Assembly (NCBI RefSeq): GCF_007954365.1 | Contig: NZ_VOLO01000003.1 | Coordinates: 62,001-126,000, forward strand | From: Frigoribacterium sp. ACAM 257 | GTDB lineage: Bacteria > Actinomycetota > Actinomycetes > Actinomycetales > Microbacteriaceae | Length of the DNA stretch: 64,000 bases | Direction: 5' to 3' | Part shown: piece by piece, positions 40,995 to 56,288 of the stretch | Numbering within the stretch: position 1 is the first letter of the stretch | How the letters are laid out: the number at the start of each line of letters is the position of its first letter | Position numbers and translations under genes: made by a program | The notes under the pieces: generated by a model | Told to the model about the DNA's origin: nothing | What the model saw: the letters and a program-made list of their open reading frames with translations, nothing else | The model's database searches: none

Positions 40995-42255
40995 GTCGTC
41001 ACTGCCCCCTCTCGTCTCGGTCGCGTCGGCCTCGACGAGGCCGGAAGCCGCTGACGAGACCGACGAGCGCTGGTCGCGCACCGTGCGGCTGCCGGGCTTC
41101 GGCCTCGAGGCCCAGGCCCGACTGCGCGCGGCTCGCGTGCTGGTCGTCGGCGCCGGCGGTCTGGGATCTCCGGCTGTCCAATATCTCGCAGCCTCGGGTG
41201 TGGGGACGCTGGGAGTGGTCGACGACGACGTCGTCGACCGGTCGAACCTACAGCGTCAGGTGCTCTTCGCACCTGGGGACGTGGGCCTGCCGAAGGCGCG
41301 GATCGCCGCCGAGCGCGTGCGGGCGACCGCCCCCCACACGCAGGTCGTCGTGCACCCCGTCCGGCTGACGGCCGAGACCGCGGCCATCCTCGACGGGTAC
41401 GACCTCGTCGTCGACGGCAGCGACTCGTTCGACACCTGCTACGTCGTCGCCGACGAGGCCGCAGCCAGGGGACTGCCCGTCGTCTGGGGCAGCGTCGCTC
41501 GGCTCGACGGCCAGGTCAGCGTCTTCTGGGACGCCGCCCCCGACGGCCGTGACGTCGACTACCGCGACCTGCACCCGTCGCCGCCGGCCGGCGGCTGGGA
41601 CGAGTCCTGCGCCGACGTCGGCGTGCTCGGGCCGCTCTGCGGCACCGTCGGCTCGGTCATGGCCAGCGAGGTCGTCAAGCTCGTCACGGGCGTCGGCGAG
41701 CCGCTGCTCGGCCGCGTCGTGACGATCGACGCGGGCACCGCCTCCTGGCGGGAGAGCCGCCTCCGACGCGCTCCGCACCGGGCTGCTGCGCGTGCCGTGG
41801 CACGTGCTGAGCCGAGCCGCGCGCGAGGAGCATCGGCGTCTGGTGCGGCCAGCGCACCCGGCGAGGCCGACGAGGAGGCGCGGGCCGGTTCCGGCGAGTC
41901 CGTCGCGACCCGGCCCCTCGGCACCCGCAGCCCGGACGTCTCCGCCGAGGAGCTCGCCGACCTGCTCGCCGCACGCGATGCGGGTGAGGCGGCGTTCACC
42001 CTGCTCGACGTGCGGGAGCCCGACGAGCACGACTTCGCACACCTGCCGGGCGACGTGCTCGCGGCAGGCTTCGGGGTCCGCACCCGTCAGAGGCCCGAGC
42101 TCGACCCGGACACGCCCGTCATCGCCTACTGCGCCCGCGGCCCGCGCGCCCGGGCGGCCGCCGAGCTGCTCGTCGCGGACGGGTTCGACGTGGCCGTGCT
42201 CGACGGGGGCATGCTCGGCTGGCAGCTGCGCACCTCCTCGGCTGCACGCCCCTGA
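40993..42255 (+). CDS. moeZ: MoeB/MoeZ-type adenylyltransferase-sulfurtransferase with C-terminal rhodanese
   Basis: Activates the C-terminal glycine of MoaD or other small sulfur carriers by adenylation and loads sulfur from its rhodanese domain; 420 residues. The nucleotide loop VVGAGGLGSPAVQYLAASG is at about 52-70; NLQRQVLF and DGSDSFDTCYVV follow. The conserved Cys region is CADVGVLGPLCGTVGS. The zinc CxxC pairs of E. coli MoeB are absent, as in MoeZ-like proteins. An Ala/Arg-rich linker of about 50 residues leads to the rhodanese domain with active Cys in AYCARGPRARA. GGAGG sits six bases before ATG 40993. It converges on moaD. Confidence 0.92.
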   Translation: MSSLPPLVSVASASTRPEAADETDERWSRTVRLPGFGLEAQARLRAARVLVVGAGGLGSPAVQYLAASGVGTLGVVDDDVVDRSNLQRQVLFAPGDVGLPKARIAAERVRATAPHTQVVVHPVRLTAETAAILDGYDLVVDGSDSFDTCYVVADEAAARGLPVVWGSVARLDGQVSVFWDAAPDGRDVDYRDLHPSPPAGGWDESCADVGVLGPLCGTVGSVMASEVVKLVTGVGEPLLGRVVTIDAGTASWRESRLRRAPHRAAARAVARAEPSRARGASASGAASAPGEADEEARAGSGESVATRPLGTRSPDVSAEELADLLAARDAGEAAFTLLDVREPDEHDFAHLPGDVLAAGFGVRTRQRPELDPDTPVIAYCARGPRARAAAELLVADGFDVAVLDGGMLGWQLRTSSAARP

Positions 42256-43800: not shown

Positions 43801-43842
43801 CACGCTCACGCTCACGCTCACGCTCACGCTCACGCTCACGCG
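43801..43842. repeat. hexanucleotide microsatellite (CACGCT)6-CACGCG containing the modC stop
   Basis: Six perfect CACGCT units and one CACGCG. On the minus strand the repeat reads GCG TGA in the modC frame, so the modC stop codon is followed by several further in-frame stops at six-base intervals. Confidence 0.9.
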
Positions 43843-45020
43843 ATCGTGACGCGCTCCGGGTCGAGCAGCAGCCCGACCCGCTCGCCGCGCCGGAGCCGGG
43901 CGCCGTCGGCGGTCGCGAGGGGCAGCTCGGCCACGGCCGAGAGCGACCCCTGGTCGGTGACGACGGTCACGGCCAGCCGGGAGAGGCGCTGCTCGACGCT
44001 CACCACGCGCGCCGGGACTGGGACGGGTGCCGCGCCTCCTGCGGGCACGGCGCCGCTCCGAGGTCGGGACCCGACCGCGGGCCCGGGAGGCGCGGCCGGC
44101 TCGTCGAGGCGCACCAGCGACACCGCCTCGATCGGCACCGACACGCGCGCGGGCCCGTGCGCGAGCGGCCGAGTCGACGACACGGTGAGCCCGCCCGTAA
44201 GCGAGGCGCGAGCTCCGCGGCCCGTCGCCGACGACTCGACGGGCGTCCAGACCGTGGCCCCCGTCAACGAGGCGACGTACGAGGTGTGCGGGTCGGTGAG
44301 CACCTCGGTCGGCGTCCCGCGCTGCACCACGACGCCGCCCTCGAGCACGACCACGCGGTCGGCGAGGGCGACCGCGTCCACGGGGTCGTGGGTGACGAGC
44401 AGCGTCGCGACCCGCACCTCCTGCAGCACGTCGGCGAGCGCCGCGCGCAGGGCCGGGCGCTGTTCGGCGTCCAGGGCCGCCAGCGGCTCGTCGAGCAGCA
44501 GGAGGCGCGGGTCGGCCGCCAGCGCGCGCGCCACCGCCACCCGCTGCGACTGGCCGCCGGAGAGCTCGGAAGGACGCCGTCCCGCGAGGTCGCCGAGGCC
44601 GACCCTGCGCAGCTCGGCCAGTGCCAGCTCGCGGGCCGCGCGGGCCGGGCCCCCCCTGCTGCGGGGACCGAAGGCGACGTTCTCGAGGGCGCTGAGGTGG
44701 GGGAACAGGCGGTGGTCCTGGAAGACGGTGCCGACACGACGGTCGCGGGCGGTGACCCGGGCGGCCGGCCCGTCGTCTGGACCTGGCCCGTCCAGCAGGC
44801 GTCCGTCGAGGACGACCCGCGACCCGTCAGCGGGCAGCAGCCCGGCGAGTGCCCCGAGCGCCGACGACTTGCCCGCGCCGTTCGGGCCGAGCAGGGCGAC
44901 GACCTCGCCCGGGGCGACGTCGAGGTCGAGCTCGAGCCTGAACGAGCCGCGCGCCACGCGGAGACGAGCGCTCAGCCCGCCCCCGCTCAGCCCGCCCCCG
45001 CTCAGCCCGCCGTCGCTCAT
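43836..45020 (-). CDS. modC: molybdate ABC transporter ATP-binding protein
   Basis: Cytosolic ATPase of the molybdate importer, 394 residues. Walker A LLGPNGAGKSS, Q-loop TVFQDHRLFPHL, signature LSGGQSQRVAVARAL and Walker B LLLLDEPLAALD are all present. A C-terminal regulatory TOBE/Mop-like domain follows (VSVPIEAVSLVRL to LLLDPERVTIA). The N-terminus begins with a repetitive Ser/Gly/Leu stretch (MSDGGLSGGGLSGGGLS) from a 15-bp tandem repeat. ATG 45020 overlaps the modB stop by four bases. The stop codon lies inside a CACGCT microsatellite. Confidence 0.95.
   Translation of the reverse strand: MSDGGLSGGGLSGGGLSARLRVARGSFRLELDLDVAPGEVVALLGPNGAGKSSALGALAGLLPADGSRVVLDGRLLDGPGPDDGPAARVTARDRRVGTVFQDHRLFPHLSALENVAFGPRSRGGPARAARELALAELRRVGLGDLAGRRPSELSGGQSQRVAVARALAADPRLLLLDEPLAALDAEQRPALRAALADVLQEVRVATLLVTHDPVDAVALADRVVVLEGGVVVQRGTPTEVLTDPHTSYVASLTGATVWTPVESSATGRGARASLTGGLTVSSTRPLAHGPARVSVPIEAVSLVRLDEPAAPPGPAVGSRPRSGAVPAGGAAPVPVPARVVSVEQRLSRLAVTVVTDQGSLSAVAELPLATADGARLRRGERVGLLLDPERVTIA
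44971..45015. repeat. three 15-bp tandem repeats at the modC start
   Basis: CTCAGCCCGCCCCCG twice and a two-mismatch third copy, in frame, encode the GGLSG repeats at the modC N-terminus. Unit number could vary between strains without breaking the frame. Confidence 0.88.
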
Positions 45021-45889
45021 CGCGGCCCCGTCGTCAGCCAGCGGTCGCGCAGCAGCAACAGGACCCCGACCCCGACCGCCAGCAGCAGCAACGAGATGGC
45101 CACGGCGCTCTCGGGGTCGCTCTGCTGTGCCAGGTAGACGCTCGTCGGGAGGGTCTGCGTCCGTCCCGGGAAGGTCCCGGCGAACGTGATCGTCGCCCCG
45201 AACTCGCCGAGGGCCCTGGCGAAGCAGAGCACGGCTCCCGCGGTGACGCCGGGGGCGACCAGGGGGACCGTCACCCGCCGGAACGCGTACCAGCGCGACG
45301 CCCCGAGCGAGGCGGCGGCGTCGTCGAGCCCACGGTCGACACCGCGCAGCGCCCCCTCGACGCTGAGCACCAGGAACGGCATCGCGACGAACGTCTGCGC
45401 GATCACGACGGCCGCGAGCGTGAACGGGATCGTCACGCCGAGGGCCGCGTCGAGCGGACGGCCGAGCAGTCCGTTGCGCCCTAGCAGGTAGAGCAGCGCG
45501 ATGCCGCCGACGACGGGCGGCAGCACGAGCGGCACGGTCACGACGGCTCGCAGGAGGCGTCGCCAGACCGCAGGCCAGGCGTCGCTGGCCGTCAGCAGCC
45601 ACGCCAGGGGCACGCCCAGCAGCAGGCTGATCGCGGTGGCGAGCAGCGCGCTCGTGACCGACACCCGCAGGGCGTCGAGCACCGTCTCGCTCGCCAGCCG
45701 CTGGCCGAGGGTCGACCACGGGGCCCGGACGAGCAGCGCGACGGCGGGGAGGACGAGCAGCGCCAGCCCGACGAGCGCCGGCACGAGGACGGCGACGGGC
45801 AGGCGCCGGTCGCGCCGCTGACGTCGATCACGCGGGAGGCGCCGATCAGGCAGCAGCCGGCGGTCACGCTGGTGGGGAGGAAGGACCAC
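45017..45889 (-). CDS. modB: molybdate ABC transporter permease
   Basis: Inner-membrane permease of the molybdate importer, 290 residues. The N-terminal 30 residues are Arg-rich (positive-inside), then about six hydrophobic helices follow. The EAA loop is RGVDRGLDDAAASLGASRW, and the family signature ARALGEFGATITFAG follows. The GTG start at 45889 is ten bases after the modA stop and has no strong ribosome site, so the start is the least certain part. It is coupled to modC by ATGA. Confidence 0.93.
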   Translation of the reverse strand: MVLPPHQRDRRLLPDRRLPRDRRQRRDRRLPVAVLVPALVGLALLVLPAVALLVRAPWSTLGQRLASETVLDALRVSVTSALLATAISLLLGVPLAWLLTASDAWPAVWRRLLRAVVTVPLVLPPVVGGIALLYLLGRNGLLGRPLDAALGVTIPFTLAAVVIAQTFVAMPFLVLSVEGALRGVDRGLDDAAASLGASRWYAFRRVTVPLVAPGVTAGAVLCFARALGEFGATITFAGTFPGRTQTLPTSVYLAQQSDPESAVAISLLLLAVGVGVLLLLRDRWLTTGPR

Positions 45890-45899
45890 GGCGCCCAGG

Positions 45900-46751
45900 T
45901 CAGCCGATCCTGAAGCCGGCGTCGGCGAGCGCGTCCTGGCCGGTCGACGACAGCACGAACGTGAGGAACGCCTCTGCCAGGTCCGGGTTCGGGGCGTCGA
46001 CGAGGCGGGCGGCGAGGTACGAGGTGGTCGGGGTCGAGGCGTCGCCCACCTCGATCCCCTCGACCGAGTCGCCGGCCGCCGCGACGTCGGTCTCGTACAC
46101 GAGCGCCGCGTCGACCTCGCCGAGCTCGACCTTCGTGAGGGCGCTCTTCACGTCCGGCTCGAGCGTCGCCGGGGTGACGGCCACCCCCTCTGCCTCGAGC
46201 ACGGTCGTGGCCAGGGCCCCGCAGGGCACCTCGGCCGCGCACAGCGCTACCTTCACGTCGGGCGAGGCGAGGTCGGCCAGCGAGGTCACGCCGCCGGGGT
46301 TGCCGGCGGGCACGGCGATCTCGAGCGCGTTGCGCGCGAACGTGGCGGGCTCGCCCTCGGCGAGGCCCGCGTCGGTCACGGTCTGCATGGTGGCGGCGCT
46401 GGCGCTGAAGAAGTCGTCGACGGGCGACCCGGCGACGATCTGCTGGGCGAGTGCCGAGCTTCCGCCGTAGCTGACGGTGACGATGGTGCCGGGGTTCGCG
46501 GCCTCGAAGTCGGCGGCGAGGGCGTCGAAGGTCTCCGTGAGGGAGGCGGCGGCCAGCACCGTGATGTCGCCGGTCGGCGCGGCGGCGGGCCTCGCGACGG
46601 GGGGGCCCGAGGCGGTCGGGTCGTCGGCGGCGCCCCGGGAGGAGCAGGCGCTCAGCACGAGCAGCGCGGCAGCGCCGGCGGCGAGGGCGAGGAGCACGCG
46701 GGCGGAGGGCATGCGGGCCGAGGAGGCGCGGGTGCGGCGTGCAGGAGTCAT
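45900..46751 (-). CDS. modA: molybdate-binding lipoprotein
   Basis: Extracellular molybdate receptor, 283 residues. The signal peptide ends with the lipobox LVLSAC (Cys at about residue 36). TVLAAASLTETFDALAADFE is the ModA N-terminal signature, and VSYGGSSALAQQI and GSPVDDFFSAS contribute oxyanion-binding Ser residues. VYETDVAAAGD and AFLTFVLSSTGQDALADAGF complete the fold. ATG 46751 overlaps the upstream regulator's stop by four bases, giving the order regulator-modA-modB-modC. Confidence 0.95.
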   Translation of the reverse strand: MTPARRTRASSARMPSARVLLALAAGAAALLVLSACSSRGAADDPTASGPPVARPAAAPTGDITVLAAASLTETFDALAADFEAANPGTIVTVSYGGSSALAQQIVAGSPVDDFFSASAATMQTVTDAGLAEGEPATFARNALEIAVPAGNPGGVTSLADLASPDVKVALCAAEVPCGALATTVLEAEGVAVTPATLEPDVKSALTKVELGEVDAALVYETDVAAAGDSVEGIEVGDASTPTTSYLAARLVDAPNPDLAEAFLTFVLSSTGQDALADAGFRIG

Positions 46752-47224
46752 CGAGCGGTCTCGCTCTCGGCCTCGGCGGGCGCGGGCGCTGTCGCGCCCA
46801 GCCGCCCGAGCGTCACGCTCACGTTCGTCGCCTTGGCGCTCGCGACCACGGGGCTGCCGACCTCCAGTCCCAGCTCGTCGGCCGCCTCCCGGCTGATCAG
46901 CGACACGACCCTGAACGGCCCGGCCTGCACGTCGACCTGCGCCATGACCGTGTCCCGGACGATCGCCGTGACGATGCCCGTGAACCGGTTGCGCTCGCTC
47001 GCCACGGAGCCCGAGGTGTCGCCTCCCGTCGCAGGACGAGGAGGTGCGGCGAGCGCCGCCTGCTCGCTCGCGACGCGTGCCAGCTCCGAGCCGACGACGG
47101 CGAGGCGTCCGCCGGGGCCGGGCACGAGCTCGAGCCGCCCGGCGTCGGCCCAGCGGCGGACGGTGTCGTCCGAGACGCCGACCAGCGCGGCGGCCTCGCT
47201 GACGCGGTACAGGGTCTCTGGCAT
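46748..47224 (-). CDS. molybdate-responsive regulator: helix-turn-helix plus molybdate-binding (Mop/TOBE) domain
   Basis: Compact ModE-like regulator of 158 residues. The N-terminal excisionase/MerR-type helix-turn-helix (YRVSEAAALVGVSDDTVRRW) spans residues 6-25. One Mop/TOBE domain follows (NRFTGIVTAIVRDTVMAQV to ATNVSVTLGRLG), expected to bind molybdate. It is the first gene of the mod operon, overlapping modA, so autoregulation by molybdate is likely. ATG 47224 lies six bases after TAGGCT (leaderless). True ModE has a winged helix; this is the short actinobacterial version. Confidence 0.88.
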   Translation of the reverse strand: MPETLYRVSEAAALVGVSDDTVRRWADAGRLELVPGPGGRLAVVGSELARVASEQAALAAPPRPATGGDTSGSVASERNRFTGIVTAIVRDTVMAQVDVQAGPFRVVSLISREAADELGLEVGSPVVASAKATNVSVTLGRLGATAPAPAEAESETAR

Positions 47225-47261: not shown

Positions 47262-48716
47262 TCAGTCGACGGTCGCCGCCGTACGTGCGGGTCTACGGCC
47301 GACGATGCGCCGCACCCGACGCACGTCGGCCACGACGACGTCCCCCAGCCGCTCGGACCACCCCGGCCCCGCCCGCCAGATCGACACGAGCAGGATCACG
47401 AGCACCGCCGTCGCCAGCGACGCCCGCTGCAGGGCCATGTACGGCTCCAGCTGTCGCACGAGCAGGGCGAGCGGGATCGCCAGCCACTCCCACCGACCCG
47501 TCAGTGCGACGAACGGCACGAGCAGCAGGGCGTACCAGGGGTAGCGCGGGCTGACGGCGACGAGCACGACGCCGATCATCACGAGCTGGCCGAGCCAGGG
47601 GCTGTCGACCGGGGTCTTCACCCAGACGAGGGCGGCCGTCACGGCGAGCAGCAGGGCGACGACCGGCGTCGTCCAGGCGTCGGGCAGGAAGGCGGACATG
47701 AAGACGAAGCGCGAGCCGTCCTCGTAGCCCTCCTCCGTGAGGTAGCCGGGCAGGTAGCCGAGCACCTGCCAGCCGGTCGTGGCGACGTACGGCACGTAGA
47801 GCAGGGCGAACGTGACGATCGAGGCGACGACGACCTTCGCCGGCTGACGACGCAGCAGGGCGGGGGCGGCGATCGCCGGGATGAGCTTGGTCGCGACGGC
47901 GGCGCCAAGCGCGATGCCGCCCCGCCAGCGACGGCCGGTCGCGACGAGCAGCGTGGCCGCGACGACGAGCACGGCCCCCAGCAGGTCGACGTGCGAGTTG
48001 GTGATCCCCTCGCCGACGACGAGCGGGCACCAGCCCCAGAGAGCGGCCCAGCGCGGGTCGAGGCCGCGGCGGCGGAGGGTGACGACGAGCGCGACGGTCG
48101 TGCCGAACACGAGCAGCGCGCCGGTGAGCTGGAGCGGGAAGAAACCGACCTCGGGGCCCACGAGGGCCCGCACGCCCGCGAAGTACAGCTCGGCCGCGGG
48201 CGGGTAGATCGTCGGGACCTCCGGGCGGTTGATCGCCGTGCAGACGACGTCGCCCGTCTCGGTGTCGTAGGCGCGGTGGATCTGCCGGTCGGGCTGGCTG
48301 CACCGCTCGCCGATCGTGCCGTCGTCCCGGGTGAAGGGCGCCGACTCCGGGAAGATCCAGTCGGGGCGCAGGTCGCGCAGCTCGCCCGAGTCGGGGGTGT
48401 GCGCGTACGGCGAGACGCCGTTCACCTGGACGATGCCGTCCCAGGCGTAGCGGGCCGGGTCGGTGCTCGTGTTCGGGTCGCCGACGAGGGCCGCACCGCC
48501 GACGAGGGCCGTGCCCGCGAGCACGAGCGCCGTGACCGCCCGGGCGGGCACCCGGCGCAGCAGCAGCAGGGCCACGACGAAGAAGGCCCAGCACACCGCG
48601 GTCCACACCACGTAGGAGGCGCGGAGCTCCTCCCGCAGGAATCCCAGCTCGAGAACGCCCCACGCCACGGACGCCGCCAATCCGGTGACGGCGACGGCCG
48701 CGAATAGAGTACGCAC
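47262..48716 (-). CDS. GT-C/GT87-like membrane glycosyltransferase, candidate methylthio-sugar transferase
   Basis: Polytopic membrane protein of 484 residues with about 11-12 helices and the GT87-like pattern. The first large outside loop contains DPARYAWDGIVQVNGVSPYA, with candidate acidic residues, and TIYPPAAELYFAGVR. TNSHVDLLGAVLVV and SPRYPWYALLLVPFVA are further family features. It would transfer a sugar from a polyprenyl phosphate to an envelope glycan. By position and type it could correspond to M. tuberculosis Rv0541c (MtxT), the methylthioxylose transferase; that is inference. GTG 48716 is chosen because CAGACT lies six bases upstream. Confidence 0.82.
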   Translation of the reverse strand: MRTLFAAVAVTGLAASVAWGVLELGFLREELRASYVVWTAVCWAFFVVALLLLRRVPARAVTALVLAGTALVGGAALVGDPNTSTDPARYAWDGIVQVNGVSPYAHTPDSGELRDLRPDWIFPESAPFTRDDGTIGERCSQPDRQIHRAYDTETGDVVCTAINRPEVPTIYPPAAELYFAGVRALVGPEVGFFPLQLTGALLVFGTTVALVVTLRRRGLDPRWAALWGWCPLVVGEGITNSHVDLLGAVLVVAATLLVATGRRWRGGIALGAAVATKLIPAIAAPALLRRQPAKVVVASIVTFALLYVPYVATTGWQVLGYLPGYLTEEGYEDGSRFVFMSAFLPDAWTTPVVALLLAVTAALVWVKTPVDSPWLGQLVMIGVVLVAVSPRYPWYALLLVPFVALTGRWEWLAIPLALLVRQLEPYMALQRASLATAVLVILLVSIWRAGPGWSERLGDVVVADVRRVRRIVGRRPARTAATVD

Positions 48717-48773
48717 CTGTCCAGTCTGGTCGACGACCGCCTGGGAACCAGGACCACGCACCAGATATGTGAA

Positions 48774-50126
48774 ATGATGGCCGACATGAGACAGCTGCTG
48801 CTCACGCTCCGCACGGCCGCCTCGTCGCCGACCCGCAACGCCCGCTCGGCGACCGTCCTCGGCCGGCTGCTCGCCGCCGCGTTCCTGATCTGCCTGCTGA
48901 CCGGCCTGTACAGCCACTTCCTGCAGGAGCCCGCATCGTGGATGCGGTTCCCCACCTCGCCCGTCTGGCTCTACCAGGTGACGCAGGGCATCCACATCAC
49001 GGCCGGCATCGCGTCGATCCCCCTGCTGCTCGGCAAGCTGCACGCCGTGTTCCCGCAGCTGTTCCAGCACCCTCCGGTGCGGCACCCGGTGCAGGTGCTC
49101 GAGCGCGCCTCCATCGCCCTGTTCATCTCGACGTCGGTGCTGCAGCTCGTCACCGGCCTGCTGAACACCTACCAGTGGTACCCCTGGCCGTTCCCGTTCA
49201 AGCAGGTGCACTTCGCCCTGTCCTTCGTGATCATCGGCTCCCTCGCCGTCCACATCGCGGTGAAGCTCCCGCTGATCACGCGCTACTGGCGGGCCCGCGA
49301 CAGCTACGACGCCGAGGGCCGGTTCGTCGAGCCGTCGGGCGAGCTCGACCCTGCGCGGGCAGAGCACGAGGCAGTCCGCGAGCTCGCACGGATGCGCCGC
49401 GACGCCGCGCCGACGGGCGTCGGTGAGCACGGCGACGCGGGGCCCGCAGCCGCTCAGCCCCGCGGGCTGGTCGGCCGCGTGACGCGCTGGATCGACGACG
49501 CCCGCGAGCCCGAGCGAGACCCGGCCCGCAGCCGCGTGTCGCGCCGGGGCTTCTTCGTCGCGATCGGCGCCTCGACCGTCGGCGTCGTCGCGCTCACCGC
49601 CGGCCAGTCCTTCACGCCGCTGGAGCCGCTCAACGCCTTCGGTCCCCGCCAGCGCGGCATCGGCCCGAACGACCTGCCGGTGAACCGCACCGCCTCGGCC
49701 GCCAAGGTGCTCGAGACCGCCATGGACCCCGACTGGACCCTCACGATCGCCCACGGCGAACGCACGATGGCCTTCACCGCCGCCGACCTGGAGGCGATGG
49801 CCCAGGGCGACGAGCGCCTCCCGATCTCGTGCGTCGAGGGCTGGAGCCAGACCGCGCGCTGGCGTGGTCCGCGGCTCGTCGAGCTCATGGCGCTGGTGGG
49901 GGCGCCGTCCGACCGGTCCCTCCGCGTCACCAGCCTCGAGGAGAAGGGCGGCTACCGCGTCATGCTGATGGGCCCCGAGTACGCCACCGACCCCGCCACG
50001 CTCGTCGCCCTCGAGGTCAACGGCGGCCGGCTCGACATCGAGCACGGCTACCCTGCCCGGATGATCGCCCCCGGGCGTCCCGGCGTCCTGCAGACCAAGT
50101 GGCTCAGCCTGATCGAGGTGATCTGA
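48774..50126 (+). CDS. membrane-anchored molybdopterin-dependent oxidoreductase (sulfite-oxidase fold)
   Basis: Predicted molybdoenzyme of 450 residues. The N-terminal half has four hydrophobic helices with several His in or near them (YSHFL, GIHITAG, KLHAVFP, KQVHFALS, AVHIAVK), suggesting a cytochrome-b-like domain. A twin-arginine segment, VSRRGFFVAIGAS (Arg257-258), begins a fifth helix. The Moco domain follows, with the ligand Cys353 in PISCVEGWSQTARWRGPRL and the C-terminal YPARMIAPGRPGVLQTKW. Sec insertion of four helices followed by Tat export of the folded domain is the likely topology. Starts at 48774, 48777 and 48786 are possible. It is coupled to the next gene by TGATG. Confidence 0.9.
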   Translation: MMADMRQLLLTLRTAASSPTRNARSATVLGRLLAAAFLICLLTGLYSHFLQEPASWMRFPTSPVWLYQVTQGIHITAGIASIPLLLGKLHAVFPQLFQHPPVRHPVQVLERASIALFISTSVLQLVTGLLNTYQWYPWPFPFKQVHFALSFVIIGSLAVHIAVKLPLITRYWRARDSYDAEGRFVEPSGELDPARAEHEAVRELARMRRDAAPTGVGEHGDAGPAAAQPRGLVGRVTRWIDDAREPERDPARSRVSRRGFFVAIGASTVGVVALTAGQSFTPLEPLNAFGPRQRGIGPNDLPVNRTASAAKVLETAMDPDWTLTIAHGERTMAFTAADLEAMAQGDERLPISCVEGWSQTARWRGPRLVELMALVGAPSDRSLRVTSLEEKGGYRVMLMGPEYATDPATLVALEVNGGRLDIEHGYPARMIAPGRPGVLQTKWLSLIEVI

Positions 50127-50617
50127 TGACGCGCTCGTCGGCCGTCCCCGCCGTCCCCGCCTCGACAGGCCGCGGCGTGCGCGTCGCCCGTGCCGTCCTC
50201 GTCGTCGTCGGGGTCGCCCTGATCGGCCTCGGCGGCTGGGTGCTCACCGAGACGGTGTCGCCGACGCGCTACGGCGGCTTGCTCGTCTGGCTGATCGGCT
50301 CCGTGATCGCCCACGACGCGATCATCGCCCCGGTCGTGGCCGGAGCGGCGCTGCTCGTCGGGCGGACGGGACGCCGCATCTCCGCCGCCGTGGTCGCGAT
50401 CCTGCAGGTCGGGGTCGTCCTCGGGGTCGTGCTGACCCTGGTCGTCGTGCCCGAGATCATCGCGAAGGCGCGAGGGCCGAAGAACGACACCGTGCTGCCC
50501 TTCGACTACGGCGCCCGGCTGGCGGTCGCGTGGCTCGTCGTGGCCGTGCTGACGGCGCTGGCCGTCGTCGGCTGGACCGTGCTCGCCCGCCGTCGCGAGG
50601 CGCGCTGCGCGGCCTGA
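50126..50617 (+). CDS. small integral membrane protein, partner of the molybdoenzyme
   Basis: A 163-residue protein with four predicted helices: VARAVLVVVGVALIGLGGWV, LLVWLIGSVIAHDAIIAPVV, ISAAVVAILQVGVVLGVVLT and AVAWLVVAVLTALAVVGWTV. I do not recognise a named family. The single His (AHDAII) in helix 2 is conserved-looking but unproven. ATG 50126 overlaps the molybdoenzyme stop (TGATG), so the two are made together; it may be a membrane partner or assembly factor. It ends just before a 60-bp perfect palindrome. Confidence 0.8.
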   Translation: MTRSSAVPAVPASTGRGVRVARAVLVVVGVALIGLGGWVLTETVSPTRYGGLLVWLIGSVIAHDAIIAPVVAGAALLVGRTGRRISAAVVAILQVGVVLGVVLTLVVVPEIIAKARGPKNDTVLPFDYGARLAVAWLVVAVLTALAVVGWTVLARRREARCAA

Positions 50618-50661
50618 CGCGCACGTCCTGGCGCGCCCGAGCGGCCTCGGCCTCGGCTGAG

Positions 50662-50721
50662 GCGACGCGCAAACGACGAACCGACGTGATCTCCCACGTC
50701 GGTTCGTCGTTTGCGCGTCGC
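50662..50721. terminator. 60-bp palindrome with perfect 27-bp arms between convergent genes
   Basis: Left arm 50662-50688 begins GCGACGCGC and ends CCGACGTG. The right arm 50695-50721 is its exact complement, with a six-base loop ATCTCC. It lies between convergent genes ending at 50617 and 50730. A 27-bp stem without mismatch is unusually long for a simple terminator, and no T-tract follows. Confidence 0.7.
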
Positions 50722-50729
50722 TTCCTGGC

Positions 50730-51473
50730 CTAGGAGGCGCGCACCAGCCGGCAGAAGGTGCGACGACCGACCGACCAGGTCTGCGACACGCGCAGGCCCG
50801 CGGCGGCGGCGTGGCGGCCGAGTGCCTCGCGGCCGACCTCGGCCCAGGGGAACGTGGCGCTCGCGCGGCCCTGCTCGTCGACGACCTGGGCGTCGTACGC
50901 GACGTCGACCGCGGGGTCCGCCGCGGTCTCGACGACGACGGACCCCGTGGGGGCGACCACCGAGGAGGCGCGGGCGACGAGCGCGGTCGGGTCGCCGCCG
51001 ATCCCGACGTTGCCGTCGAGCAGCAGGGCGACGTCCCACGTCCCCTCGCCCGGCAGCGCGTCGAAGACCGAGCCGGCCACGACGGGGAGCCCGGCGTCGA
51101 CGGCCATGGCGACCGCGGTGACGGAGACGTCGACGCCGAGGGCGCCGAGCCCGCGGTCGACGGCGGCGCGCACCATCCTGGCGGGGCCGCAGCCGATGTC
51201 GAGCACGGAGGACGCGTCGAGGATCGTGCTCAGGTCGGCGGCGTCGGCGTCGCGGCTCCAGCGGGCGACGTCGAACGCGTCGAGGTCGGAGGTGCTGCGG
51301 TCCACCGCGTTGCGGTCCGCGGCGTCGCGGACGCTGTCGACCGGGCGTGAGCCCTGGCGAGCGGTGCCGGGGGAGCGGACGAGCTGGAGCCGCCCCTCGC
51401 GGCGGAGGGCACGGGCGTACGGCTCGGCGCCTCCTGAGCCGAAGGTGGGCTGGGGGTCGGCGGTCATGGTCAC
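50730..51473 (-). CDS. class I SAM-dependent methyltransferase of the glycan cluster
   Basis: Predicted methyltransferase of 247 residues. SAM motif I is VLDIGCGPARMVRAAVDRG at about residues 90-108, followed by LGVDVSVTAVAMA. The C-terminus VGRRTFCRLVR is typical of small Methyltransf-11/25 proteins. GTG 51473 overlaps the DUF2064 gene stop by four bases (GTGA); ATG 51467 is an alternative. It is the last gene of the GT2-DUF2064-methyltransferase operon. Its substrate is unknown; a sugar or lipid intermediate of the same pathway is plausible. Confidence 0.86.
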   Translation of the reverse strand: MTMTADPQPTFGSGGAEPYARALRREGRLQLVRSPGTARQGSRPVDSVRDAADRNAVDRSTSDLDAFDVARWSRDADAADLSTILDASSVLDIGCGPARMVRAAVDRGLGALGVDVSVTAVAMAVDAGLPVVAGSVFDALPGEGTWDVALLLDGNVGIGGDPTALVARASSVVAPTGSVVVETAADPAVDVAYDAQVVDEQGRASATFPWAEVGREALGRHAAAAGLRVSQTWSVGRRTFCRLVRAS

Positions 51474-52141
51474 GAGAGGGTCTCCTCGGTGGTGGGCCGG
51501 GAGGCGTCGGGATCGCCAGCGGTGGTGGGGTCGAGTCGGCGCAGGGCCTGCGCGAAGAGGGTGTCGGGGCCCGCGGCGGCCGCCAGCCGGGCGTCGTCGA
51601 TCGTGTCGACGTCGACGAGCTCGGGCAGGGCGCGGACGCGCAGACCCGCCTCGGCGAGTCGACGCAGCTGGTGTGCGCCGGTGTCGTCGCGCGACATCGG
51701 GACGCCGCGCAGCAGGTCGCCCGTGGGTCGCTCGAGTCCCAGAGCCCAGAAGCCCCCGTCGTTGGCCGGGCCGAACCAGGCGTCGACGTCGTCGGAAGGG
51801 TCGTCGAAGGCCGGGGCGAGGTCGGCGACGGTGAGCTGGGGCGTGTCCATGCCGACGAGCACGGTGCGCCCGTCGACCTCGTCGAAGAGGGCTCCGAGCC
51901 GTGCGTCGAGGCCGCCGCCGATCTGGTGGATCACATCGAAGTCTTCGGAGCCGGGGGGCGTTCGGTTGCCGTCGAAGAGCAGGACGCGTCGGCTCGCGGG
52001 CAGCTGCCGCACCACGGCGAGGGTGTCCTGGATCGCCGCGGCCGCAACCTCGGCGGCCTGCTCGAGGGTCAGGGGAGGGTGCAGGCGCGTCTTGACCTTG
52101 CCCGGCAGGGTCTCCTTGCAGATCACCACGACGGTCGTCAT
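51470..52141 (-). CDS. DUF2064 protein (TIGR04282-type glycosyl/nucleotidyltransferase-like)
   Basis: A 223-residue protein with a GT-A/nucleotidyltransferase-like fold. The N-terminus VVVICKETLPGKVKTRLHPP matches the KxxGxxKTRL signature of DUF2064. LVGMDTPQLTVADL contains the conserved DTP. GPANDGGFWALGLERP is the third family motif. Homologues are annotated as arsenosugar or CofC-like transferases and include, as I recall, M. tuberculosis Rv0540. Activating a sugar 1-phosphate to a nucleotide sugar would fit this cluster but is inference. ATGA overlaps couple it to the genes on both sides. Confidence 0.86.
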   Translation of the reverse strand: MTTVVVICKETLPGKVKTRLHPPLTLEQAAEVAAAAIQDTLAVVRQLPASRRVLLFDGNRTPPGSEDFDVIHQIGGGLDARLGALFDEVDGRTVLVGMDTPQLTVADLAPAFDDPSDDVDAWFGPANDGGFWALGLERPTGDLLRGVPMSRDDTGAHQLRRLAEAGLRVRALPELVDVDTIDDARLAAAAGPDTLFAQALRRLDPTTAGDPDASRPTTEETLS

Positions 52142-52806
52142 CGGCCTGCCTCCCTGAGCAGGCGCGACATGTCCTCGACGGCCCGTGCGGTGCCGCGGAT
52201 CGTGCCGGTCACCTTGCTGCGGCCGACGCGCGGCGAGTACGGCACGTCGAGCTCGTGGATGCGCCAGCCCGCCTCGGAGGCGCGCAGCACCATCTCGAGC
52301 GGGTAGCCGCTGCGTCGGTCGAGGAGGCCGAGGCCGAGCAGCCCCTCGCGGCTGGCGACGCGCATCGGGCCGAGGTCGTGCAGGGCGACGCCGGAGGCGC
52401 GGCGCATCAGGTGCGCGAGCACGCGGTTCGCGACGCGGGCGTGGAACGGCCAGGCCCCTCGGACGGTGGGTCGTCGGCGGCCCAGCACCAGCTCCGCCTC
52501 GCCCGCGAGCACGGGTCCGGCGAGCGTCGGCAGGTCGGCGGGGTCCATCGACGCGTCGGCGTCGCAGAAGGCCACGAACGGTGCCGTGGCGGCCTCGAGA
52601 CCGGCATGGGCGGCTGCTCCGAAGCCACGACGCGCCTCCTCGACGACCAGGGCGCCGTGCTGACGGGCGACGTCGGCCGAGCCGTCGGTCGAGCCGTTGT
52701 CGACGACGATGGCTCGCCAGCCCTCGGGCAGTCGTCCGAGCACCCAGGGCAGCGCCCCGGCCTCGTCGAGACAGGGGAGCACGACGTCGACCTGGGAACT
52801 GCTCAT
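52138..52806 (-). CDS. GT2 glycosyltransferase, polyprenyl-phosphate-sugar-synthase-like
   Basis: Short GT-A enzyme of 222 residues without membrane helices. VDVVLPCLDEAGALPWVLG begins the fold; VVDNGSTDGSADVA and FCDADASMDPADLPTL (DxD) bind nucleotide sugar and metal. FHARVANRVLAHLMRR and GYPLEMVLRASEAGWRI resemble dolichyl-phosphate-mannose synthases. In M. tuberculosis the similar Rv0539 (MtxS) is reported to load methylthioxylose onto decaprenyl phosphate. ATG 52806 lies seven bases after TAATAT (leaderless), and this gene starts the three-gene operon. Confidence 0.88.
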   Translation of the reverse strand: MSSSQVDVVLPCLDEAGALPWVLGRLPEGWRAIVVDNGSTDGSADVARQHGALVVEEARRGFGAAAHAGLEAATAPFVAFCDADASMDPADLPTLAGPVLAGEAELVLGRRRPTVRGAWPFHARVANRVLAHLMRRASGVALHDLGPMRVASREGLLGLGLLDRRSGYPLEMVLRASEAGWRIHELDVPYSPRVGRSKVTGTIRGTARAVEDMSRLLREAGR

Positions 52807-52813
52807 CCTGGTG

Positions 52814-52819
52814 ATATTA
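52814..52819 (-). promoter_or_regulatory. -10 element of the GT2-DUF2064-methyltransferase operon
   Basis: TAATAT on the minus strand, seven bases (CACCAGG), then ATG 52806: leaderless layout and unusually AT-rich for this DNA. Confidence 0.6.
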
Positions 52820-52913
52820 CGGTCCCGCCCCTGGGAGGGGCCAGGGTCGGCCCGGACGGGGGGTCGTCGGCCCTGCTCGGTCTGCCCGGGCAGGGAACTC
52901 GGGCGGGTCCGTC

Positions 52914-52962
52914 CAGCACGGTCCGTGTCGCCGGACCGTCGGCGACGAACTGGACCGTGCTG
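52914..52962. terminator. nested inverted repeats downstream of the epimerase gene
   Basis: CAGCACGGTCC (52914-52924) pairs with GGACCGTGCTG (52952-52962). A second GGACCGT at 52933-52939 allows an alternative short hairpin with 52918-52924. It lies in the 181-bp gap between the epimerase stop and the GT2 promoter, so it probably ends the mtnP-epimerase transcript. Confidence 0.5.
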
Positions 52963-52987
52963 CCCCTCAGGATCTGCAGGTGCGGCC

Positions 52988-54115
52988 TCAGCCGCCGACG
53001 GCAGCCCTCAGCGGCGCAGTCGCGAACTCGCGCATGCCCGCCTCGAACGACACAGCCGGTCTCCAGCCCAGCTCGTCGCGCAGCCGGGCTGACGAAGCGG
53101 TGACGTGGCGCACGTCGCCCGCGCGGTACTGGCCGGTGACCACGGGAGCGGGCCCGCCGGCCTCGCGGGCCAGCGCCTCCGCCATCTCGCCGATCGTGTG
53201 CACGGTGCCGCTGCCGACGTTGAACGCCCGGAACGAGTCGGGCTCCTGCTCGCCCGTCCAGTCGAGCGCCGCCAGGTTGGCGGACGCGATGTCGCGCACG
53301 TGCACGAAGTCGCGCCGCTGGGCGCCGTCCTCGTAGACGCGGGGCGCCTCGCCGCGCTCGAGCGCGGAGCGGAACAGCGACGCCACCCCGGCGTAGGGGG
53401 TGTTCTGCGGCATGCCCGGCCCGTAGACGTTGTGGTAGCGCAGGGCGGCGGCGCGGCCGCCGGTGCTGCGGGCCCACGAGGTCGACAGGTGCTCCTGCGT
53501 GAGCTTCGTGATCGCGTACACGTTGCGGGGGTCGAGGGGGGCGTCCTCCGCGATCAGCTGCGGCTCGAGGAGCTCGCCCTCGGCGTCGCGCGGGTCGAAG
53601 ACGCCGGCGTCGAGGTCGGCGATGCGACGGGGGGCCGGCCGCTCGGTCTCGCCCGCGCTCGTGCGGTAGCTGCCCTCGCCGTAGACGACCATCGACGAGG
53701 CGACGACGAGCCGGTCGATCCCCGCCCTGTCCATCGCGGCGAGCAGCACGGCCGTGCCGTGCTCGTTGCTGTCGACGTAGTCAGGCGCGTCCTGGAAGTC
53801 GACGCCGAGGCCGACCTTGGCCGCCTGGTGACAGACTGCGTCGACGCCCGCGAGCGCCGCGTCGACGACCGCCGCGTCGCGCACGTCGCCGTGGACGAAG
53901 TCGACCCGCGGGTCGAGCGTCGGGGGGCCGCCGTGCACGTCGGGTCGCAGCGAGTCGAGCACGCGCACGGACCAGCCACGGCCCAGCGCCTGCTCGACGA
54001 CGGCCGAGCCGATGAAGCCGGCGCCGCCCGTCACGAGCAGCAGCCCGGGCGACGAGGAGGCGCGGGCTGCGTCGGCGGGGCCCGTCGCGGAGGAGGCGCC
54101 CGTCGTGTCGGTCAC
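52988..54115 (-). CDS. NAD-dependent sugar epimerase/dehydratase (extended SDR)
   Basis: GalE-like protein of 375 residues. The NAD loop is LVTGGAGFIGSAVVEQA at about residues 28-44, and HGDVRDAAVVDAAL follows. Catalytic Ser/Tyr/Lys lie in VVASSMVVYGEG and NVYAITKLTQEH (YxxxK). RYHNVYGPGMP and RRDFVHVRDIASAN bind substrate and cofactor. It overlaps the phosphorylase gene by four bases (GTGA), linking sugar epimerisation to methylthioribose release. As I recall, M. tuberculosis Rv0536 (galE3) follows Rv0535 in the same way. A ribo-to-xylo epimerisation is the inferred step. Confidence 0.9.
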   Translation of the reverse strand: MTDTTGASSATGPADAARASSSPGLLLVTGGAGFIGSAVVEQALGRGWSVRVLDSLRPDVHGGPPTLDPRVDFVHGDVRDAAVVDAALAGVDAVCHQAAKVGLGVDFQDAPDYVDSNEHGTAVLLAAMDRAGIDRLVVASSMVVYGEGSYRTSAGETERPAPRRIADLDAGVFDPRDAEGELLEPQLIAEDAPLDPRNVYAITKLTQEHLSTSWARSTGGRAAALRYHNVYGPGMPQNTPYAGVASLFRSALERGEAPRVYEDGAQRRDFVHVRDIASANLAALDWTGEQEPDSFRAFNVGSGTVHTIGEMAEALAREAGGPAPVVTGQYRAGDVRHVTASSARLRDELGWRPAVSFEAGMREFATAPLRAAVGG

Positions 54116-54999
54116 GAGGTCGCCGACCGCACGGGGCGCGCGAGCACCGCCGCCGTCGCCGCCGACGAGACGAGCTCGCGCGGCGCGTAGTCCGCAGGCA
54201 GCCCCGCGACGATCGCCTCGATGGCGGCGACGATGCGCGGCTGGGCCGCGGCGAGGCGGTCCATCACGAGCTGGTGGCTGACGGCGTCGTCGTCGGTGCC
54301 TGCCTGGCCCTCCTCGGGGGCGAGGCCTGCGTCGCTGTCCGTGACGAACGAGATGTTCACGGCGCCCATGCCGAGCTCGAGCGTGAGGGGCACCTCCGGG
54401 TACATCGTCATGTTGATCGTGTGCGCACCGGCGGCGCGGAACCAGAGCGACTCGGCCCGGGTCGAGAACCGGGGGCCCTGGATGACGACGCAGGTGCCGG
54501 TCGGGGCGAACGGCTCGCCCTGGGCCTCGAGGGCCGAGACGGCGGCGGCCCGCAGCACCGGGTCGAACGGGTCGGCGGCGACGAGGTGCTGCACCCCGCC
54601 CTCGACGTCGAAGAAGGTGTCGGGGCGGCCCCAGGTGCGGTCGATGAACTGGTCGGTGACGACCATGGTGCCCGGCGGGTACTCGGGGCTGACCCCGCCC
54701 ACGGCGGACGACGAGACGACCGCCTTCGCGCCGAGCGAGGCGAGCGCCCAGACGTTCGCGCGGAAGTCGATGCGGTGCGGCGGCACGGAGTGGCCCTTGC
54801 CGTGCCGGGTGAGGAACGCGACGGTCTTGCCGCCCATCTCGCCGATCGTCACCTCGCTCGACGTCGGCCCGTAGGGCGTCTCGACGACGTGGCTCGTCGC
54901 CGTGCCGGGTGCGAAGAGGGAGTACAGGCCGGAGCCGCCGATGACGGCGACGTCGACGCGGGGGAGGGCGGGGGACGAGGAGGAGGAGGTGTCGGTCAC
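54112..54999 (-). CDS. mtnP: S-methyl-5'-thioadenosine phosphorylase (or related purine phosphorylase)
   Basis: Splits methylthioadenosine with phosphate into adenine and methylthioribose-1-phosphate; 295 residues. AVIGGSGLYSLF is the N-terminal signature. FLTRHGKGHSVPPHRIDFRA holds the phosphate site. VIQGPRFSTRAESLWFR and TINMTMYPEVPLTLELGM are the purine-phosphorylase family 2 motifs, with FVTDSDAG near the C-terminus giving the base-binding Asp. Starts at GTG 54999, seven bases after TAGCGT. No Met-salvage genes (mtnA, mtnB and so on) are adjacent; the product may instead feed the sugar pathway. Confidence 0.92.
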   Translation of the reverse strand: MTDTSSSSSPALPRVDVAVIGGSGLYSLFAPGTATSHVVETPYGPTSSEVTIGEMGGKTVAFLTRHGKGHSVPPHRIDFRANVWALASLGAKAVVSSSAVGGVSPEYPPGTMVVTDQFIDRTWGRPDTFFDVEGGVQHLVAADPFDPVLRAAAVSALEAQGEPFAPTGTCVVIQGPRFSTRAESLWFRAAGAHTINMTMYPEVPLTLELGMGAVNISFVTDSDAGLAPEEGQAGTDDDAVSHQLVMDRLAAAQPRIVAAIEAIVAGLPADYAPRELVSSAATAAVLARPVRSATS

Positions 55000-55037: not shown

Positions 55038-56288
55038 GTGCGCACAGTCGAGCAGCACCAGATCGCCGTCCGGGCGCTGGTGGAGGAGGCGTTGGCGCGG
55101 CGTCCTGTGGAGGCCCTCCTCGTCGACCCGGTCCGCATCGCGGCCGAGCCCGACCGGCACCGCCGCCGGGTGCTCGCGGCCGACGTCGTCGCGCCGCTCG
55201 ACCTCCCTCCCTTCGCCAACTCGCAGATGGACGGCTACGCCCTGACCGCTGCCGACGCCGCGCGCGACGGCGGAGTCGACCTGGTGGTCGTCGACCCGAT
55301 CCCGGCCGGCCACGTGGGCCCGGCGCTCCGACAGGGCACCGCCGCGCCGATCATGACGGGTGCAGCGGTCCCGGCGGGCGCCGTCGCGGTCGTGCCGATC
55401 GAGCGCGCCGCCCCGCCCGCGTTCCCCGTCGCGGGCGCCGACGCCCGTGTCGTCCTCCCCGGCCCCGTGGCCGAGGGCACCTTCGTCCGCGCCGCCGGCA
55501 GCGACGTCTCCGCAGGCAGCGTCCTGCTGCGCGCCGGCACGGTGCTCACCCCGGCGCGCTGGGGGGTGCTGGCCGCCTCCGGGCTCGTGACCGTCGAGGT
55601 CGTCCGCCGCCCGCGCCTCCTGCTGGTCTCGACCGGGGAGGAGCTGAGCGCCCCCGGTGCCGCCCTCGCCCCCGGCCTCATCCACGACGCCAACGGCTCG
55701 GGCCTCGCTGCGGCCCTCGTCGACGTCGGCGTCGACGTGGTCGTCGAGCGCGTCCCCGACGACGCGGACGCACTGCTCGGCGTCGTGGCCCGGCACGCCG
55801 GGTCGGTCGACCTCGTGCTCACCACGGGGGGCGTCAGCGCCGGTGCCTACGAGGTGGTCCGCGACGCTTTCGAGACGGCGGGCGTCGTCTTCGGGCACGT
55901 GGCGATGCAGCCCGGCGGGCCGCAGGGCTGGGGCTCCCTCACCGTGCACGACCGCCGGCTGCCCGTCGTCTGCTTCCCGGGGAACCCGGTCAGCGCGCTC
56001 GTCTCGTTCGAGGCGTTCCTGCGGCCTGTGCTGCACGACGCGACGGGCGTCGGCACGCCTCGCCTGCACCGCACGGTGCCGATGGGCGAGGCGGCCGACT
56101 CTCCCGTGGGCAAGCACCAGCTGCGACGCGGACGCCTCGACGTCGACGGGCGGGTCGTGCTCGTCGGCGGCCCGAGCTCGCACCTCCTGGCCTCGTACGC
56201 CGAGGCGACCGTGCTCGTGCACGTCCCGGTCGGCGTCGACCGGCTCGACGACGGCGACGAGGTCGTAGTCTGGACGCTCGATGAGTGA
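55038..56288 (+). CDS. moeA: molybdopterin molybdotransferase
   Basis: Inserts molybdate into adenylyl-molybdopterin, 416 residues from GTG 55038, with AGAGGA upstream. Signatures: PPFANSQMDGYALTAAD near residue 55; IMTGAAVPAGAVAVVPIE; LLVSTGEELSAPG; HDANGSGLAAAL; LTTGGVSAGAYEVV; PVVCFPGNPVSALVSFEAF. All four MoeA domains are present. It heads moeA-moaC-mog-moaE, an operon with 4-8 base overlaps, and is divergent from mtnP. Confidence 0.95.
   Translation: MRTVEQHQIAVRALVEEALARRPVEALLVDPVRIAAEPDRHRRRVLAADVVAPLDLPPFANSQMDGYALTAADAARDGGVDLVVVDPIPAGHVGPALRQGTAAPIMTGAAVPAGAVAVVPIERAAPPAFPVAGADARVVLPGPVAEGTFVRAAGSDVSAGSVLLRAGTVLTPARWGVLAASGLVTVEVVRRPRLLLVSTGEELSAPGAALAPGLIHDANGSGLAAALVDVGVDVVVERVPDDADALLGVVARHAGSVDLVLTTGGVSAGAYEVVRDAFETAGVVFGHVAMQPGGPQGWGSLTVHDRRLPVVCFPGNPVSALVSFEAFLRPVLHDATGVGTPRLHRTVPMGEAADSPVGKHQLRRGRLDVDGRVVLVGGPSSHLLASYAEATVLVHVPVGVDRLDDGDEVVVWTLDE

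Follow-up and report, generated by a model that had tools for sequence, protein, structure and literature searches.

Is the methylthioxylose (MTX) pathway confined to mycobacteria? The question is raised by a locus of Frigoribacterium sp. ACAM 257 (genome size 3.33 Mb), located in the stretch of 64,000 nucleotides that we analyzed (contig NZ_VOLO01000003.1, positions 62,001 to 126,000; hereafter the window, whose own numbering we use). A reading of this DNA made from its letters, the sequence-only reading, had proposed that five genes of the locus match the Rv0535-Rv0541c set of Mycobacterium tuberculosis. MTX has been called a hallmark of M. tuberculosis lipoarabinomannan (LAM) (PMC8531672; what we take from this and the other papers cited comes from excerpts of them), and how it is assembled has been handled as a question of LAM. 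A 2024 PNAS paper sets MTX apart and describes its presence outside LAM assembly as unclear (PMC11127046); a 2023 review leaves open whether MTX is present in other mycobacteria (PMC10675199); and the linkage work cited in PMC3229680 is that of Guerardel 2003, the title of which concerns M. kansasii. Among the literature matches listed, the excerpts contained no description of the pathway outside mycobacteria and no tie between it and a molybdoenzyme. Here, we find that the five genes are part of a larger module that is widespread in Actinomycetota, and we consider it probable that the genes of the window locus make up an MTX-like pathway for decoration with a methylthio-pentose.

The five genes are all present on the minus strand. 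The methylthioadenosine (MTA) phosphorylase gene, mtnP (54112-54999; PF01048 E 3.9e-39; TIGR01694 E 1.9e-71, 240 bits against a cut-off of 274.85), is followed by the genes for a GalE-like NAD-dependent sugar epimerase (52988-54115; PF01370 E 6.2e-50), an MtxS-like GT2 polyprenyl-phosphate glycosyltransferase with a predicted role in donor loading (52138-52806; PF00535 E 4.5e-18), and a nucleotidyltransferase-like DUF2064 protein predicted to activate the sugar-1-phosphate (51470-52141; PF09837 E 2e-19; TIGR04282 116.8 bits against a cut-off of 134). The fifth encodes a GT-C glycosyltransferase of the GT87 type, predicted to be the extracytoplasmic transferase (47262-48734; PF09594 E 2.3e-9, 37.8 bits, above the gathering cut-off of 25); this gene ends at 47262, and its start may be 48734, 48716 or 48611. 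The 4-bp overlaps claimed for mtnP and the epimerase gene and for the GT2 and DUF2064 genes are real, and a third joins the DUF2064 gene to that of a class I S-adenosylmethionine (SAM) methyltransferase (50730-51473; PF13489 E 4.4e-8). Thus, in the minus-strand run from 54999 to 50730, three of four junctions overlap by 4 bp, and the remaining one, between the epimerase and GT2 genes, is a gap of 181 bp. The gene set as first listed was nevertheless incomplete. Besides the methyltransferase, it omitted a plus-strand pair that lies before the divergent GT-C gene, as well as the molybdenum genes on either flank. The pair consists of a membrane molybdo-oxidoreductase of the Sco3746 type, with a b561-like heme domain and a sulfite-oxidase-fold domain (48774-50126; PF00174 E 2.3e-20, above the cut-off; PF01292 E 9.9e-7, just under it), and a small hydrophobic, probably membrane protein of 163 residues (50126-50617), whose reading frame begins on the very base with which the stop codon of the molybdo-oxidoreductase gene ends. 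The longer open reading frame (ORF) containing this small protein has no Pfam match.

Does the donor half of this cluster correspond to the mycobacterial one? The search covered no genome of M. tuberculosis itself (its FabH found a best match of 92% identity among 297 genomes of the genus g16), and the comparison was made with a mycobacterial-type cluster, L039. By inference, the genus g16 of group f10 is Mycobacterium: it has emb genes, and its FabH reaches 92% identity with the M. tuberculosis chain (1m1m/1hzp, which we take to be from that species). The genes of L039 run in the order fabH, a MenA-like gene, MTA phosphorylase (MTAP), epimerase, about 4 kb of other sequence, GT2, DUF2064 and a convergent GT-C gene, an order that, with its fabH and menA-like neighbors, presumably fits Rv0533c-Rv0541c of M. 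tuberculosis. Between the window and L039, the GT2 proteins are 53% identical, the epimerases 53%, the MTAPs 48% and the DUF2064 proteins 37%, and the order of these genes is the same. Among the f10 genomes, 15 gave a GT2 match at E<=1e-20, and in every one of these it was the single match (ten best candidates scored per genome), 53-56% identical to the window GT2. These comparisons support the view that the donor half (epimerase, GT2 and DUF2064, usually accompanied by an MTAP gene somewhere in the genome) is the counterpart of the MtxS region of mycobacteria. The proposed match to Rv0535-Rv0541c therefore stands for MTAP, epimerase, GT2 and DUF2064, and it fails for the GT-C protein, as described below. 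MtxS is Rv0539 and MtxT is Rv0541c (PMC8780516); the Rv equivalences used here rest in part on that paper.

In the window, an MtxS-type GT2 gene is found with adjoining DUF2064 and epimerase genes. The GT2 has four PDB relatives, three of them undecaprenyl-phosphate Ara4FN (4-deoxy-4-formamido-L-arabinose) transferases, and the DUF2064 relative 3cgx is a putative nucleotide-diphospho-sugar transferase. Gene fusions tie DUF2064 to both of its neighbors. GT2-DUF2064 fusions occur in L080, L086, L101 and L103, and in reversed order in L149 (5/121 loci), and DUF2064-methyltransferase fusions in L035, L050, L057 and L123 (4/121 loci). All nine come from rows without an internal stop that carry two non-overlapping domain matches; 16 extracted rows held internal stops. 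The window DUF2064 also resembles the arsenosugar-type family TIGR04282, which by analogy would likewise activate a 5-modified ribose; it differs in scoring under the cut-off of that model. No arsenic gene was found among the locus proteins scanned against Pfam and NCBIfam models.

How common is this arrangement? An even draw of 296 Actinomycetes genomes (the class draw) yielded a GT2 match at E<=1e-20 in 143, nearly half of the sampled class, although 12 of these, with best E values of 1e-20 to 1e-31, are probably paralogues. Gene neighborhoods were inspected in two independent sets, whose counts are given in this order below: the window together with 40 further Actinomycetes genomes chosen for a GT2 match, in which some contigs end inside the stretch, and 80 named loci, the best 80 of at least 419 confirmed candidates. 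The epimerase, GT2 and DUF2064 genes lie together in 38/41 and 76/80, and the gene set is thus conserved far beyond chance. Taken singly, DUF2064 is present in 40/41 and 79/80 neighborhoods, the epimerase in 39/41 and 77/80, the methyltransferase in 33/41 and 72/80, the molybdoenzyme in 27/41 and 62/80, a response regulator in 22/41 and 54/80, a kinase in 22/41 and 52/80, relatives of the 163-residue protein in 11/41 and 30/80, and an MTAP in 20/41 and 20/80. All Microbacteriaceae loci of the named set (11/11) carry an MTAP within the cluster. The window GT2 shares 82% identity with that of Frigoribacterium sp. VKM Ac-2836, which places the window in the Microbacteriaceae. The module extends beyond the class Actinomycetes, to Solirubrobacter and Patulibacter. 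The claim of a cluster outside mycobacteria was borne out, and the cluster is not an oddity of one organism. An OmpR-type regulator and a kinase often lie between the epimerase and GT2 genes; the window cluster has neither.

Next to this conserved donor half, the GT-C gene varies in type. The sequence-only reading had taken the window GT-C for a counterpart of Rv0541c/MtxT. This assignment was rejected: the protein belongs to GT87, and profile comparison, with sequence profiles only, detected no relation to the mycobacterial type (hhalign probability 0.3-0.4%). The mycobacterial-type GT-C, four scanned members of which had no Pfam match, was not found anywhere in the window genome. It is present in 23/41 and 44/80 loci, and the GT87 type of the window in 16/41 and 27/80; neither type was seen in 2/41 and 9/80, and both together in 0/121 neighborhoods. 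This mutual exclusion is not absolute genome-wide, as 4/16 genomes of the window type have a distant relative of the mycobacterial type elsewhere; the other 12/16, including the window genome, have none. Of the genomes with neither type in the neighborhood, G237 has an unlinked mycobacterial-type gene and G105 has none. On the GT2 tree of 121 rows, the GT-C type requires at least 15 changes, of which 5 are forced by well supported branches, 49 of the 118 inner branches being poorly supported. One donor pathway thus appears to be served by two unrelated GT-C types. In three Curtobacterium loci (L095, L108, L110), which have an MTAP and a methyltransferase in the cluster, the neighborhood contains neither a molybdoenzyme nor a GT-C of known type; these may perhaps use another transferase encoded elsewhere.

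We then asked how the product of MtnP might be used. In the window protein, PF01048 and the MTAP models are the best matches, though under the NCBIfam cut-offs, and a VTDxD motif is common to it and the five MTAP-like chains from the PDB with which it was aligned. Besides mtnP, a single PF01048 gene was found in the window genome, one for a purine-nucleoside phosphorylase (PNP), and neither mtnA (TIGR00512) nor a methylthioribose (MTR) kinase gene (TIGR01767) was found there. A known way to salvage the MtnP product further, whether through MtnA after MTAP or through MTR kinase, was therefore not found. The earlier observation that no methionine-salvage gene adjoins mtnP was borne out and, for mtnA and MTR kinase, extends to the whole genome; an MTAP without mtnA fits the biosynthetic use proposed for it. 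The window genome shares this state with other members of its set: mtnA is missing from 26 of the 35 MTAP-positive cluster genomes tested. MTR kinase, considered as an alternative route where an MTAP is missing, was found in one of the 25 genomes tested, G242, which belongs to group f24. A TDxDAG motif was tried as a mark of cluster MTAPs and was rejected: present in 17/20 in-cluster MTAPs, it is also found in 16/20 unlinked or cluster-free ones and is therefore an actinobacterial trait. L164 has TDYDVG, and no such motif was seen in L159, L162 or L163; L159 and L163, with very long branches on the MTAP tree, are probably in a wrong reading frame, and nothing was drawn from them.

Gene presence was compared between genomes with and without the GT2. 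The positives are the 41 genomes with inspected neighborhoods and 16 g16 genomes (of 110 with a match) counted by gene presence. The negatives, defined by no GT2 match at E<=1e-20 in the class draw or 1e-30 in the g16 search, are 20 genomes of the window's own family and order, 48 others of the class draw (153 negatives in all) and 16 of the 38 g16 negatives. G204, of the own family and with a weak GT2 match (5.6e-22), was left out of both groups, and 12/80 added genomes and 5/61 of the first set miss the mark of 90% completeness and 5% contamination. The p-values computed for these comparisons take no account of how closely the genomes are related. True MTAPs were called above 230 bits, with PNP-like matches scoring below 90 bits. 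An MTAP is present in 35/41 cluster genomes versus 3/20 cluster-negative genomes of the own family and order, and in 51/57 GT2-positive versus 36/84 GT2-negative genomes overall. Two of the cluster genomes without it, G014 and G097, are 72% and 77% complete.

The molybdoenzyme gene follows the GT2 more closely. It is present in 34/41 cluster genomes versus 0/20 negatives of the own family and order, and, within g16, in 16/16 GT2-positive versus 0/16 GT2-negative genomes. As it is also absent from all 48 other GT2-negative genomes of the class draw, the totals are 50/57 versus 0/84, or 46/52 versus 0/72 once genomes below 90% completeness or above 5% contamination are set aside. The molybdoenzyme gene co-occurs with the cluster even in several genomes where the two lie far apart, such as G082, G386 and G329. 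Thus, the association does not reflect mere linkage.

What could this enzyme do? The window protein has the heme-type histidines, the twin arginine before the last transmembrane (TM) segment and the molybdenum-site cysteine of the Sco3746 type. Residues H74, H146, H160, R257R258 (in SRRGFF) and C353 are identical in all 26 rows with a letter at these positions (27 aligned), and a CVEGW-type motif occurs in 83 of the 85 molybdoenzyme rows longer than 330 residues; we take C353 to be the molybdenum-site cysteine. Its PDB relatives (best E 3.6e-6) are sulfite oxidases or dehydrogenases and 1xdq, presumably YedY/MsrP. With MsrP/YedY and the sulfite oxidases it shares the molybdopterin domain and the molybdenum-site cysteine, but it is fused to a heme-type membrane domain and has low sequence similarity to them. 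The small hydrophobic protein encoded at 50126-50617 has relatives that often occur in molybdoenzyme neighborhoods, and it is a possible electron-transfer or assembly partner.

Sco3746 belongs to five-TM proteins with a molybdenum cofactor that use both Sec and Tat (twin-arginine translocation) (PMC5449189). The window protein resembles them in its membrane-part histidines, twin arginine and C-terminal molybdenum domain. Whereas no function is assigned to the family in the excerpts of that paper, here neighborhood and co-occurrence link it to a glycan pathway. Reporters replacing the molybdenum domain of Sco3746 were exported by Tat (PMC5449189), which places this domain outside the membrane. 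Moreover, methylsulfoxy-xylose accompanies MTX on the LAM of four M. tuberculosis strains (PMC8531672). Given the sulfite-oxidase superfamily, the exported domain and the methylsulfoxy-xylose of LAM, an enzyme acting on sugar sulfur is a natural proposal, and we infer that the molybdoenzyme may act on the sulfur of the glycan sugar. In mycobacteria, the membrane protein Rv0218 carries a molybdopterin domain at its C terminus and has no stated reaction in the excerpt (PMC5800017); our guess is that the unlinked mycobacterial molybdoenzyme genes are Rv0218 orthologues.

Which glycan would receive the sugar? An emb gene (PF04602) was not found in the window genome, and the sequence-only reading had remarked that organisms of this kind are not known to carry a mannose-capped LAM, so that the acceptor would be new. 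Across the set, emb turned up in 8/41 cluster genomes, all of group f10; for the 33 without it, which include the window genome, an arabinan LAM acceptor is therefore unlikely, in line with that remark. A mannosylated glycan is a possible acceptor as far as gene neighborhoods suggest. The window itself encodes a distant CapA relative (39303-41081), and in one of the 121 loci (L033-L153), that of Schumannella soli (L087), a CapA-like relative (15289-16764) adjoins the cluster GT-C gene; CapA (MT1671) is the mannose-capping enzyme of LAM (PMC10503756).

Drawing on the observed gene content, its conservation, the gene fusions, the co-occurrences, the GT-C replacement and the failure to find salvage genes or emb in the window genome, our model proposes a pathway in which every reaction, the order of epimerization, the acceptor and the molybdoenzyme substrate are predictions. 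MtnP would convert MTA to 5-methylthioribose-1-phosphate, which DUF2064 would turn into a nucleotide sugar, and the GT2 would load the sugar onto polyprenyl phosphate. The GalE-like enzyme would epimerize C3 from the ribo to the xylo form at the nucleotide or lipid stage, and, where present, the methyltransferase may modify the cytosolic donor. The lipid-linked sugar would be flipped, and the GT-C, here GT87, would transfer it to an extracytoplasmic glycan, probably not an arabinan. Finally, the molybdoenzyme would act outside the membrane on the sugar thioether or sulfoxide. Extended further, the model suggests a renewable antioxidant coat in many Actinomycetota, in which the envelope methylthio-pentose is oxidized to the sulfoxide by oxidants and re-reduced by the heme-linked membrane molybdoenzyme, which would draw on a molybdenum supply of its own and would often be controlled by a two-component system. 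The M. tuberculosis LAM cap, with its methylthio and methylsulfoxy forms and its unlinked Rv0218-like molybdoenzyme, would then be one specialized descendant. This extension is speculative, and we regard it as somewhat unlikely.

Several observations weigh against an MTX-type pathway at this locus. The window GT-C is unrelated to the mycobacterial type. On the MTAP tree, the window protein falls among the cluster MTAPs of Microbacteriaceae, which stand apart from the mycobacterial and other ones, and it was therefore not transferred recently from mycobacteria. In 7/41 cluster genomes the molybdoenzyme gene is missing. Homologues of Sco3746 are reported in firmicutes, chloroflexi and euryarchaeota (PMC5449189); outside Actinomycetota the family is thus not tied to the pathway. 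Further, the module occurs without an MTAP in 3/3 f24 genomes (G100, G207 and G017), a group that falls with Frankia torreyi on the GT2 tree, and in G249, and MTR kinase was not found in any of these four. The donor therefore need not come from MTA everywhere, and the sugar may vary. Along the same line, the module could make a different activated sugar, a pentose or 5-deoxypentose whose source might be 5'-deoxyadenosine or some other nucleoside modified at the 5' position, MTX being the mycobacterial case only and MTAP supplying the sugar-1-phosphate where present. MTAPs also accept 5'-deoxyadenosine, and the likeness of the DUF2064 protein to TIGR04282, a model named for another 5-modified ribose pathway, points the same way, albeit under the cut-off. 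We nevertheless judge this alternative unlikely, given the in-cluster MTAP of the 11 Microbacteriaceae loci, its genome-wide presence with the GT2 and the co-occurrence of a molybdoenzyme, which fits a sulfur-bearing product.

It is still less probable that MtnP is a housekeeping enzyme for MTA disposal and a chance neighbor of an ordinary polyprenyl-phosphate-sugar glycosylation cluster. In its favor, an MTAP is also present in 15/16 GT2-negative g16 genomes, so that MTAP alone is weak evidence for the pathway, as well as in 18/48 other GT2-negative genomes of the class draw, and it lies outside the neighborhood in 21/41 and 60/80 loci. However, in the window's own family an MTAP occurs solely with the cluster (3/3 with it versus 0/10 without), the window genome yielded neither mtnA nor MTR kinase, and the mycobacterial counterpart is reported as an MTX pathway starting from MTA (PMC11127046, PMC8780516). 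A different doubt concerns a single step and is compatible with an MTX-type pathway: the molybdoenzyme may be a general extracytoplasmic methionine-sulfoxide reductase or a sulfite oxidase, kept by shared ecology. Its similarity to sulfite oxidases and to 1xdq is at the superfamily level only, and the excerpt of PMC5449189 gives no substrate for Sco3746. Against this stand the co-occurrence with the GT2, which holds even inside one genus, and the position of the gene within the neighborhood in most loci. We rate this possibility as rather doubtful, though it has the best standing of the alternatives.

How does the pathway we favor, of the MTX kind, compare with known systems? It shares with the M. 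tuberculosis MTX pathway the MTAP, GalE-like epimerase, GT2 and DUF2064 families in the order of the mycobacterial-type cluster, and differs in its unrelated GT-C family, in the added methyltransferase and molybdoenzyme and in that no emb was found. The usual form of the set includes the methyltransferase and the molybdoenzyme, neither of which is part of the mycobacterial model as known. The three-component systems for pentofuranose side chains (PMC11127046) also rely on a pentofuranose linked to polyprenyl phosphate and on a GT-C acting on the outer side of the membrane, as our model proposes, but their donor comes from phosphoribosyl pyrophosphate. If our model is correct, it predicts MTX or a close variant in model actinomycetes. 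Many Streptomyces loci of the named set have the order kinase, regulator, GT2, DUF2064, methyltransferase, molybdoenzyme. In S. coelicolor, SCO3740/SCO3741 are an unnamed two-component pair (PMC9739842) and SCO3744 a putative methyltransferase (PMC6135851), and Sco3746 is the molybdoenzyme; these numbers are consistent with that order, with the remaining genes predicted to lie between. Roles are thereby suggested for the Sco3746 molybdoenzyme family and for the two-component pair SCO3740/SCO3741, neither of which has a named function in the excerpts.

Finally, molybdenum genes surround the window cluster. A gene for MoeA molybdopterin molybdotransferase (55038-56288, plus strand; NF050098 E 5.8e-114, under the cut-off, with Pfam MoeA domains) diverges from mtnP across 38 bp and possibly serves cofactor supply. 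On the other side, modC, modB, modA and a gene for a protein with TOBE and helix-turn-helix domains, a set for molybdate uptake (43836-47224, minus strand; TIGR01256 and TIGR02141 above the cut-off, TIGR02142 under it; PF03459), adjoin the GT-C gene; the true start of modC falls inside its ORF. Further out lie a MoeZ-like cofactor gene (40735-42255, plus strand) and a gene for a GT-C mannosyltransferase-like protein, a distant MT1671/CapA relative (39303-41081, minus strand; NF052499 252 bits against a cut-off of 900). MoeA relatives occur in 11 of the 80 named loci, and TOBE and MoeA relatives are also seen in the Solirubrobacter loci L119 and L132.

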